Source: a virus
Strand: one strand, 5' to 3'
IMG/VR virus record: IMGVR_UViG_3300030109_002631
Span: 1 to 45,848 of that record
DNA: 45,848 bases
Made by a program: the position numbers and the translations under genes. Every line of letters begins with the position of its first letter. The stretch's first letter is position 1. The notes beneath the pieces were generated by a model, which did no database searches, was not told the origin of the DNA, and was given only the letters and a program-made list of their open reading frames with translations. Positions 1,171-43,236 of this stretch are shown here, one piece after another.

Positions 1171-4100
1171 CGAGCACTCCTCCTAGAGGGAAAATGTCAG
1201 TCATTAATTTACCATCATTTTCTAACAAAGCTATTTCTTCGATGGTCATATTGAAAGTATAAGTTGTTATAGAACGAGGCCCACCAGCAGGTCTGTTTTC
1301 AGCTACGTTAGTAATGATACCCCAGAACCTTACAAAGGTTCCATCTTTTTGAGGTTCATCCCAGTAACATCTAACAGTATTAGAATGTAACTTTCTTACA
1401 GTATGTAAATGTCCATATAAACTTTCAGGAGCAGTTGCTCCAAATTGATTAGCTGCTGATGTTGATTCATCTCCAGTAGCAACACTTCCAAAACTAACAT
1501 CTTGGATAGTATCTCCCGTTCTAGCTATGAAAACTTTACCCTTTCTAGTAATAGCTGTAAAGTAATTACCTGCTCTAGTAACTGAGAAGCCACTAGTTAT
1601 AGGAAGAGAATTTAAATTATAAGCTGAGTCATCTACTTCTTTTACAAAAGCAACACTACCCTCAGTTGCATCAAATATATTCCATATCTCAGGGAATGAT
1701 TTTATACCAGACCCTGCACCGTTAGCAGTTCCTGAGCCACTTACTGCTATTCTCATTGCATATTTAGAACTACCTGACCAATCTGTTTTCAGAGCTTTTC
1801 CTATACTACCAGCCGTAGAAGTATCTTTTACAACATATAGATTAGGGAATGCAGCAATCTCAGCGTCGACTGGAGTTAGTTTAACATTACTACTTCCTTG
1901 TCTTTCTACCTTACTTACACCACCTATGATATCATAAATGTTAACTCTTCTTATTAAGAATTTAGCGTTAGTAGCTCCAACTAAATCAGTAGGTTCATAA
2001 TCACTGCCTATATCTTCTCCATAAGTTAAATAGAGTTCATCAAGAGCTGCGTTAGTTCCATTACTGGTACCACTTGCTACCCACAAAGGTCGTTCATCTA
2101 TGTTAGATGCACCACCGGGGTCAGTACAAATAGCTATATATTTAAATGCACCAATATCATCAGCTGTACCTAATACACTCAAACTTTCTCCTGTAAGAGC
2201 ATCTATCTTAAGTACTCCTCCAAATTCAGCAGAAGCAGTAGCACCAACATTTGTAATAGTGTTACCTGTAATTAATAAATCTGTAGTTTGTGTAGCTGTC
2301 GTTGCATCAAATTGTCCTCCACATAATTCTTCTAGCTTAACTGACTCCCAATCTAAAGGCATGTCAAAAGACACGTATCCCGACTGAGAAAGAGAATTCG
2401 TCTCAGTATCGTAAGCATAAGTGCTAGTGTTTCTCAGTTCAAGTTGAGCTTTAGTAGTATCTTCAAATTCTACTTCTTTCCAGTACGCATGCTGTTTACT
2501 AGAAGTATCTGTTCCATATACAGCTTTATCATCTATAGCTAAATAAGAAACTCCAGCTATTTTATATCGTTCAGCATCTGTAACTGAACTTCCTGATAGT
2601 GTTTTTCCTATCAGTGTATTAGCATAATTATTAATATTAAATCCTACTTTATTAGTTTTACTATCCCACAATAAGACTATGTATTCCATAGCATTACGTG
2701 TATTACCTGCAATATCATTCCATGTTTGTGTGTTAGCACCTGAAAGGGATACTAAATTAGAACTACCATTCTTAACAGCTTCAGCTGTATAATCAGCAGT
2801 AAAATTACCTGAAGCAACAGGAGCCACATCAATCTTAGTAAATGAACCAGATGTAACATTACTCATGGTACTCAATCCTGCTGGTGTAATCCTATAAACA
2901 TTAGGTTGGTTAGTAATTATAGAACTTACTTCTGTATCTGTCATATTTGATGCACTAGAAGGTTCTACTGACATACGTGTTAAATGATACTGTGGAGTAA
3001 ATCTACCAAAATCATCAATAATAAACTGGTCTGTTCTATAAGCCTGAGTGGTAGTTGCTACTCCATCTCGTGCCCAATCAGAACCTGCTCCTGTTGTAAA
3101 TCCACTGTAAACAACCGAAGCCTGACCATTAAGACCATCAGGTCGTGTCATGTACGTATAACTTACTGGTTTAGTAGCTGAGGTCTGAACAGTGTTGTTA
3201 TTAAAGAAATAAGACCCTGTGGTTTCCCATTGAAATGCAGGGTTAAAAAAGACTTTACCATTATCATATCTATAATTTTTTAAAGATATATTAGAAGCAG
3301 CAGCCCTGCTCTGTGAAAAATCTAAAGTAACAGTTCGTAAGGGGTCATCTGCTTTTTTGATAGGTGAACCAGCTGAGACATATCCAATAGGATAATAATC
3401 AGCATCATCTCCCTGTACACATACAAATAATTTAAGATAATTAAAGGCATCATTTGTGTCATAATCTGTAGTTCCACCATCCACTTTAGGGTTAGTATAA
3501 GTTATTTTCAAAACTTTTGAAATCAATCCTCCAGTGCTAGTAATTGCATTCATACCAGCTGCTCCACTGAGGGCAGCGGCCGATAAAGTCTTAGTTAAAG
3601 TTACTAAAGAACTACCTGCACCACCAAGAGAAGTTGCCGCAGTTCCTGTAGCTACCATTGAATAATCTACTATACAATCTACTTCTACAGTAACACTACT
3701 AATTGAGTTTAATTGAGCAGCAGTGGCTAAAGGAGGAGCAAATAAATAAAGAACTTTACCTCCTTCTTTCTCAAAAATAGAATTATCAATACCTGATTTA
3801 ACTGTTTTGTTTTCTAAACGCATAATACCAGTTGCTTCACTGTCACTTATTGTAGTCCCAGTAATAGTAGCATCTTGCGTAAAGGGAGTGAGATTAGCAC
3901 TCTCGTCATTATTAGCATAGAATCTTGAAACGATTCCTTTTGAATTGATAGTTCTTACAACAGGGTTAAAGGTACCGGATGCAGTATATGTATGTTTAGC
4001 AGTTCCTGTCTCAATTGGTTCAGTAAACTGTACCCATTCGTAGTTAGCTTCTTCAAGTTTATTAGAAGGACCATCATCCCAATCTATATACATAGCTCTT

Positions 4101-41312: not shown

Positions 41313-41450
41313 TTTATATACCCCCCTCTAGCTCGGCGCCCCCCTTTATATACCCCTCTCTATCTCGCCCATCCTCACCCGTGGCCCGCTCCCCTTTATA
41401 TACCCCCTTCTATCTCAGCCTCTTTTTCAAAAAAAGCAAAAGCTTATATA
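41313..41450 (+). promoter_or_regulatory. Four tandem TATA boxes upstream of one gene
   Basis: CCCTTTATATACCCC-type boxes lie at 41313-41320, 41345-41352 and 41395-41402, then CTTATATAGG at 41443-41452. Only the last is placed for a leaderless start at ATG 41471 (24 nt). The segment 41176-41470 has no gene. Confidence 0.65.
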
Positions 41451-42360: not shown

Positions 42361-42476
42361 CCCAAAAAGTGCGAGCGGGATTAAGTCCTTTATATACCCC
42401 CTTATAGAAATTTGAGTCCCTCGACGAGAGAACCCACCCATAATAATATATGCTCCCCTACTATTGGTATATTATG
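42361..42476 (+). repeat. Duplicated double-TATA promoter cassette, copy 1
   Basis: CAAAAAGTGCGAGCGGGATT (42363-42382) precedes a distal TATA box (42389-42396) by 26 nt. A TCGACGAGAGAACCCACC leader motif, GCTCCCCTA and an ATGAGC start follow. The same order recurs at 42998-43113, and partly at 45084-45171. Two start sites are predicted: near 42420 from the distal box and at 42474 from the proximal box (42446-42451). Confidence 0.72.
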
Positions 42477-42542
42477 AGCAAATACAGCACATGGTTAACC
42501 AGCTATATGGTTAGCATATCATACGCAACAAGGAAACTGTAA
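42474..42542 (+). CDS. 22-aa leaderless micropeptide
   Basis: ATG 42474 stands 26 nt after the proximal TATA box and follows the ATTGGTATATT motif seen before other real starts. It encodes MSKYSTWLTSYMVSISYATR and two more residues. The nucleotide sequence contains TGGTTAACCA (42492-42501) and other dyads, so the transcript may instead act as RNA. Confidence 0.4.
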   Translation: MSKYSTWLTSYMVSISYATRKL

Positions 42543-42768
42543 ACATACATTCCGTGAGTTAGTCAGACAGTAAGATGTGGCCCAAGGAGTAGGCGCACCC
42601 CAACGGAAAGGGGCATGTCACCAACTGAAAGAGGTTAATAGCCAAGTTGGTATTAAGTGACTAATAACAGAGGAGGTCTGACAAGTGAAGATACTATGGG
42701 CAACTGGTCCCCATACGAAGGCTCTGCATGACCCTACTCCTCAGGCTGGATTGACCACCAGCCGACAA
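42543..42768 (+). ncRNA. Candidate structured ncRNA A
   Basis: There is no gene here, yet complementary segments are frequent: AGGAGTAGG (42585-42593) with CCTACTCCT (42733-42741), ACCAACT (42620-42626) with AGTTGGT (42645-42651), TATGGG (42695-42700) with CCCATA (42710-42715), and GGCTGG (42744-42749) with CCAGCC (42758-42763). GTCAGAC (42562-42568) with GTCTGAC (42676-42682) would cross the first helix as a pseudoknot. It is probably transcribed from the promoter of the preceding micropeptide. Short dyads occur by chance, so this is a hypothesis. Confidence 0.4.
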
Positions 42769-42769
42769 C

Positions 42770-42789
42770 CTTATATAGGCATGGCCTAT
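42770..42789 (+). promoter_or_regulatory. Leaderless-type promoter without a start codon
   Basis: CTTATATAGGC, then a spacer and CTATTGTATATT, align base for base with promoters of leaderless genes (for example 44305). At the position of ATG the sequence is TTAACG. A dyad ATAGGC-ATG-GCCTAT (42775-42789) overlaps it. Confidence 0.6.
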
Positions 42790-42796
42790 TGTATAT

Positions 42797-42965
42797 TTAA
42801 CGGGGTAGCTCCCTGTTATCGGGTATGGCCGAACAAGTCCGCCACGGACTAAGGCACAGGGTAAGCAAACCAAGAACCAACTGGTGGAGGGATGCTTAAC
42901 TGGTAACGCGTCTACTATGTAGTGGCATAACGCGTTTGGAGGTATACATTAAATCCTCCTACCCA
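42797..42965 (+). ncRNA. Candidate structured ncRNA B
   Basis: It is predicted to start near 42797. Nested helices are CCCTGT (42811-42816) with ACAGGG (42856-42861), GCC (42828-42830) with GGC (42853-42855), and AGTCCG-CCA-CGGACT (42836-42850). These are followed by TAAGCA (42862-42867) with TGCTTA (42893-42898), AACGCGT (42905-42911) with ACGCGTT (42930-42936) enclosing CTAC-TAT-GTAG, and GGAGG (42938-42942) with CCTCC (42955-42959). The helices are consecutive and compatible. No ORF is present and no known RNA family was recognised. Confidence 0.5.
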
Positions 42966-42966
42966 C

Positions 42967-42980
42967 CTTATATACCCCCC
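42967..42980 (+). promoter_or_regulatory. CTTATATACCCCCC box after ncRNA B
   Basis: This consensus TATA box has no start codon 20-40 nt downstream. A CCACGCTTGTGG hairpin (42984-42995) lies at the predicted start. It may be a relic or the start of a longer leader for the 43111 unit. Confidence 0.4.
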
Positions 42981-42997: not shown

Positions 42998-43113
42998 TTC
43001 AAAAAGTGCGAGCGGGATTTTTTCCTTTATATACCCCAATATAGGATTTTAGGGTTCTCGACGATAGGGGCCACCGAAAGTGGTATAAGTTAGCTCCCCT
43101 ATACTATATTATG
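42998..43113 (+). repeat. Duplicated double-TATA promoter cassette, copy 2
   Basis: CAAAAAGTGCGAGCGGGATT (43000-43019) is identical to 42363-42382. It is followed at the same distance by TTTATATA (43026-43033), TTCTCGACGA (43055-43064), GCTCCCCTA and ATGAGC. The proximal box GGTATAAG (43082-43089) is 25 nt before ATG 43111. Confidence 0.72.
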
Positions 43114-43236
43114 AGCAGAAGCGAACCATTTGGCAGTTGCGAAGACTGTGGGCTTGATGAAGTCGAATTATTCGGCGGACTGTGTGAAGATTGTGACACA
43201 CAAATGTTTACTACATTCTGGACCGGTGAGGAATAA
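43111..43236 (+). CDS. 41-aa zinc-knuckle protein
   Basis: The protein is MSRSEPFGSCEDCGLDEVEL, then FGGLCEDCDTQMFTTFWTGE. Two CxxC pairs (CEDC, CEDC) 14 residues apart resemble a minimal zinc ribbon and the two pairs of the 41017 product. It starts leaderless from the proximal box. Its stop abuts the next start (TAAATG). Confidence 0.68.
   Translation: MSRSEPFGSCEDCGLDEVELFGGLCEDCDTQMFTTFWTGEE

Follow-up and report, generated by a model that had tools for sequence, protein, structure and literature searches.

On sequence evidence, nucleotides 42798-42969 of the window, i.e. of the whole 45,848-nt stretch of viral DNA analysed here, are a real RNA gene and a member of the manA family. A cmscan search against Rfam matched this stretch to RF01745 (manA RNA) on the plus strand with 67.1 bits (E 4.7e-15), above the family's gathering cut-off of 55.2 bits, and the match spans positions 1-192 of the 192-position model. 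It is the single manA match that the Rfam search returned in the whole 66,265-base virus record. The first-pass annotation had recognised no known RNA family at this site, a statement that the Infernal/Rfam search shows to be wrong, and had placed the 3' end at 42965, which the RF01745 match moves to 42969. We favour, with reasonable though not high confidence, the interpretation that this is an autonomous manA-family RNA gene whose product would stand alone and act in trans. The features referred to below are the following.

42771..42777, plus strand: TATA box (TTATATA) of the RNA's own predicted archaeal-type promoter, with the 27-nt spacing shared with leaderless genes
42798..42969, plus strand: manA-family RNA (RF01745), divergent archaeal-virus form (cmscan, covariation, fold z-score); predicted transcript start at 42798
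42798..42818, plus strand: P1, the 5'-terminal 8-bp hairpin, 42798-42805 with 42811-42818, loop UAGCU (covariation)
42821..42964, plus strand: P2, the closing helix, GGGUA (42821-42825) with UACCC (42960-42964) (covariation)
within 42828..42855, plus strand: P3, GCC/GGC (42828-42830 / 42853-42855)
within 42828..42855, plus strand: P3b, AGUCCG/CGGACU (42836-42841 / 42845-42850) (covariation)
42856..42936, plus strand: variable arms 4 and 5 (MFE fold, alignments A1 to A3; outside the pair counts)
42938..42959, plus strand: hairpin GGAGG-(12 nt)-CCUCC, directly 5' of the P2 3' strand (covariation)
43111..43236, plus strand: next downstream ORF, ~41 aa, MSRSEPFGSCEDCG... (sequence reading)

About 20 homologues were gathered by an Rfam search of terminase-sharing records and by core-pattern scans of viral contigs, and five core helices were counted in a sequence-based (MAFFT) alignment of 18 sequences (A2). 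Here, 97.6% of cells are paired. The structure came from the window sequence together with the Rfam alignment, which biases this percentage in its favour; the compensatory changes are independent of that choice. Both-side changes affect 13 of the 25 pairs, and the covariation score of 0.495 (at most 0.164 for slid pairings) was reached by none of 500 shuffles. The covariation in relatives that had earlier been named as a check is thus present, and the conserved helices carry compensatory changes as in a manA family member. Both sides changed in five of the eight pairs of P1, and double changes were found in three of five pairs of P2, three of the four counted pairs of P3b and two of five pairs of the GGAGG/CCUCC hairpin, with the latter three helices paired in 100% of cells. 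P2 reads GGGUA/UACCC in the window, GUGAG/CUCAC in a second variant of the RNA (see below) and GGGAG/CUCCC in cyanophages. P3 and P3b are linked through a conserved internal loop, GAAYAA / UAA. Arm 5 of the window (ACGCG..CUAC-UAU-GUAG..CGCGU) and arm 4 are rebuilt differently in the second variant. Among the helices first proposed, GCC/GGC and AGTCCG/CGGACT proved to be conserved, the latter with compensatory changes, but CCCTGT/ACAGGG (42811-42816 / 42856-42861) was not: it retains 1 to 4 of its 6 pairs in 17 relatives and competes with the conserved P1.

Folded by free energy without its relatives, the window sequence shows the same core as the alignment; at -63.7 kcal/mol this fold is better than 200 of 200 shuffles (z -3.4), in line with the compact paired RNA proposed at first. 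No ORF of at least 45 aa lies inside the RNA on the same strand, nor is there an ATG at the expected start. Wobble cells comprise 14 G-U and no A-C, which identifies the RNA as the plus strand. This bears on whether the region could instead be a packaging or replication signal at the DNA level, whose dyads merely resemble RNA helices. Several inverted repeats in a noncoding region would suit such an element, but the wobble pairs are strand-specific, covariation across the multi-helix junction is that of a single RNA and the stretch matches an RNA family (RF01745), so that we regard a DNA-level signal as highly improbable. The packaging role suggested by the first-pass annotation is likewise unlikely, given the strand-specific wobble pairs and the place of the relatives among phage tRNA genes.

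The predicted 5' end agrees with the promoter. TTATATA boxes at 41444, 43865 and 44306 precede the ATG codons of leaderless genes (41471, 43892 and 44333) by 27 nt each; further leaderless promoters have spacings of 30 nt (40635) and 26 nt (30599, minus strand). Adding 27 nt to the TATA box at 42771 leads to 42798, exactly where the manA model begins. Promoter geometry and covariance model, as independent predictors, thus point to the same base, and the alignment originally drawn with the array's leaderless promoters holds. Together, promoter geometry, covariation and the absent ORF support a non-coding, structured and, as predicted, separately transcribed viral RNA. The homologue in L246/L261 has an own-promoter layout like that of the window (CTTATATAGCACCATGCTATGTTATATTTAACGG / CTTATATAGCACCATGCTATGTTATATTTAACGGGG). 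We considered a TATA promoter common to all relatives and rejected it, as the box is clear only in the window and in L246/L261. Most other archaeal-type relatives have no suitably spaced TATA box. Their manA comes after a small ORF or after the last codons of a protein gene (..KKAGLLK stop), in many cases preceded by a hairpin whose end is CCACCTTAT, and is therefore probably transcribed from further upstream. Besides, CCTTTATATACCCC-like strings, which are TATA-like boxes with no ATG at +27, occur in the window at 41314, 41346, 41396, 42390, 42968 and 43027, one of them overlapping the 3' end of manA, and a ~110-nt block (AAAAAGTGCGAGCGGGATT...) is present twice, near 42368 and 43004.

From the TATA/leaderless promoters above all, together with the matches of the family-B polymerase and a weak match of the terminase to a haloarchaeal virus, we infer that the virus probably infects archaea. 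The best PDB matches of the polymerase are entries that we take to be largely archaeal. Neither a CRISPR nor a provirus link to a host was found, and a scan of the genome collection yielded three stretches, of which only that in a gammaproteobacterial MAG (L172) scored with the model, weakly and cut by the contig end, and so gives no host link. The manA relatives come from IMG/VR viral records and cyanophage isolates, and it is from this cyanophage company that we infer a marine source. The virus is a tailed one with a probable marine archaeal host.

The manA RNA was described by Weinberg et al. 2010 (PMC2864571), its alignment was revised in Rfam 14.3 (PMC7779021), and it is listed as a known family (PMC2864571, PMC7779021, PMC7657543). 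The window RNA shares with RF01745 the order of helices, the GAAUAA/UAAGG loop and the GGUAUACA..UAA..UCC hairpin, but its closing helix and arms are rewritten, it lies outside any 5' UTR here, and it is found in contigs with archaeal TATA boxes rather than in cyanophages or gamma-proteobacteria; the putatively archaeal host is beyond the published manA range (PMC2864571). The archaeal-type copies fall into two variants. Variant 1 (the window, L022, L038, L048, L050, L160, L161, L163, L177 and L228) exceeds the Rfam cut-off in the members that were scored, whereas variant 2 (L166-L170, L246, L250 and L255; 49.5-55.5 bits) lies around it and L189 is intermediate (56.6 bits); the core of variant 2 is clearly the same as that of variant 1 (alignment; model R1). 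At blastn level, no DNA similarity to phage isolates was detected. A strongly diverged manA-like RNA (29.2 bits, below the cut-off) is located between tRNA-Arg and tRNA-Ser in L045:8230-8383, a phage contig that carries 28 tRNAs. As an unusual viral cargo gene, L157:11802-12404 (record 53801-54403) encodes a squalene/phytoene synthase (PF00494, E 3.9e-26).

According to Rfam, which assigns RF01745 the type Cis-reg, and to Weinberg et al. (2010), the fold would be a cis-regulatory leader or riboswitch through which a metabolite is sensed and the following gene regulated. In the original report, manA was located in the 5' UTRs of mannose, nucleotide and photosynthesis genes (PMC2864571), and the very conserved junction nucleotides fit this role. 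In the window, however, the next ORF at 43111 starts 141 nt after the end of manA and has its own TATA box (TATAA at 43084, with +27 giving the ATG at 43111), and is therefore not obviously served by manA as a 5' UTR. For most archaeal-type relatives, a plausible gene is reached only ~490-770 nt downstream, nearer short ORFs having been set aside by judgement, which leaves ~500-700 nt empty of a plausible gene. By sequence reading, such gene spacing is atypical for a 5' UTR: manA does not lie in the 5' UTR of a same-transcript gene in the window or most archaeal-type relatives, and does so only for some cyanophage copies. Moreover, the downstream genes are mutually unrelated; a terminator stands behind manA in L237, and a T run resembling one does so in L072/L074.

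Many cyanophage copies are located 20-60 nt 5' of ORFs (gp32-like, purL, transaldolase); a gp32-like ORF follows 29-59 nt behind many of them, and in P-SSM2 manA ends ~16 nt before purL, so that a leader role is conceivable in some phages. Others sit among tRNA genes. A tRNA gene follows ~10 nt 3' of manA in L003, L005, L011, L014, L021, L029, L036, L047, L055, L069 and L071. The 5' end of manA in L231 and L203 is 1 nt from the preceding tRNA-Gly, and its 3' end in L231 is 2 nt from the following tRNA-Asn; in RB11-B, tRNA-Arg and tRNA-Thr are each 1 nt away; and in the isolate S-CREM1, manA fills the space between tRNA-Leu and tRNA-Asn, beginning 1 nt after the former and reaching the first base of the latter. 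The gaps to the tRNAs in L231, S-CREM1 and RB11-B are thus 0-2 nt on both sides. The S-CREM1 study gives the RNA a cis-regulatory annotation (PMC9964418), yet a position between tRNA genes in S-CREM1, RB11-B and L231 speaks against a leader, and overall we consider the leader or riboswitch explanation unlikely. Rather, the frequent location of relatives in tRNA gene clusters suggests a free-standing RNA, as in our preferred reading of an autonomous RNA gene.

The S-CREM1 manA (PMC9964418; OP535465) is of the same family as the window RNA and also viral, but is found between tRNA-Leu and tRNA-Asn, while ARAGORN detected no tRNA genes in the window virus. The variant 2 contig L255 has a same-strand tRNA (3560-3632) ~327 nt 3' of manA. 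Like tRNAs, with which it shares tRNA operons in phages, manA has a closing helix (5 bp in the window RNA) whose 3' strand comes right after a 5-bp hairpin, reminiscent of acceptor and T arms. Unlike in tRNA, the end helix is of 5 bp rather than 7 bp, the 12-nt loop is devoid of a T-loop motif, and manA has an additional 5' hairpin and no conserved CCA. A tRNA or tmRNA identity was rejected, as ARAGORN calls none here, and so was a conserved 3' CCA mimic, since the 3' tail varies (ACCTT, ATCC, ACATT or a T run). An SD or anti-SD mimic (GGAGG/CCUCC) was discarded as well, because this helix covaries to GGGGG/CCCCC and GUGGG/CCCAC, and to GUUGG/CCAAC in cyanophages.

In 40 of 42 non-redundant cyanophage-type copies, a near-consensus sigma-70 promoter is present, with 4-7 nt between the end of its -10 box and P1. 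For the other two (L015, L073), the script misplaced the hairpin, and a TATAAT-like box is visible by eye; in L018, an additional copy, the promoter scan returned no hairpin. P1 is therefore at or next to the 5' end in cyanophages also. That P1 occupies the very 5' end under both promoter systems would be expected if manA were nothing further than an element for processing or stability, a module at the 5' terminus or trailing at the 3' end by which viral transcripts are protected or cleavage sites marked. The CCACCTTAT-like strings on both sides of archaeal-type copies, with a second structured stretch after them, would fit as well. Still, ~170-215 nt with conserved internal loops and a junction go far beyond what a protective hairpin needs, and the position between tRNAs in some phages is at odds with such a module, which we consider quite unlikely. 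Regarding the structured neighbours, a ~100-nt RNA directly follows manA in L022, L048, L050, L160, L161, L163, L167 and L168 (GCCCCUUGACUU ... AAGUCAGGGGC, inner CUUCC/GGAAG, often with a T run at the end), and a comparison of L022 with L048 suggests covariation in its stems. Window 42541-42690, previously proposed as a probable ncRNA (A), is a second structured noncoding stretch, with GUCAGAC ... GUCUGAC around ACCAACU/AGUUGGU and CCCC/GGGG, for which Rfam returned no match. A conserved leaderless mini-ORF of ~22 aa ending in SYATRKL is found at window 42474-42542 and in L166 (MSKYSTWLTSYMVSISYATRKL and MNQYQKSLLTWLVGISYATRKL, respectively), and in L166 manA comes directly after it.

If manA is an autonomous RNA gene, the host RNA polymerase would make a short transcript that begins with the P1 hairpin and is closed by P2, and this short RNA itself, rather than a gene it leads, would be the product. 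tRNA trimming by RNase P and RNase Z is established chemistry. Between tRNA genes in cyanophages, trimming of the neighbouring tRNAs would release a free manA with defined ends. The RNA would then act in trans on a target common to bacteria and archaea, as the same core in cyanobacterial and probable archaeal viruses argues for a shared target or a self-contained activity. The company of tRNAs points to translation or tRNA handling, and this machinery would be the most plausible target, albeit as a guess that we put somewhat below even chances.

Existing records of manA are mostly from cyanobacterial phages, and the RNA carries the label of a gene-control leader. In the part of the literature that we searched, manA is not reported from archaeal viruses and the tRNA-slot argument does not appear, and the literature searched names no ligand, with manA listed as a putative riboswitch since 2010. 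New are hence its presence in putative archaeal viruses, a divergent subfamily and the sequence evidence for a stand-alone RNA. The copy behind a TATA promoter in a probable archaeal virus and the exact fit between tRNA genes in some cyanophages both point to a free RNA. More tentatively, manA RNAs may be widespread autonomous, trans-acting viral RNAs, not riboswitches, in bacterial phages and archaeal tailed viruses alike. If so, they would be transcribed alone or matured from tRNA operons and would target a translation or tRNA-metabolism component common to both domains, e.g. to protect viral translation or to blunt a tRNA-directed host defence. An RNA kept by viruses of two domains would imply an ancient or shared host target.
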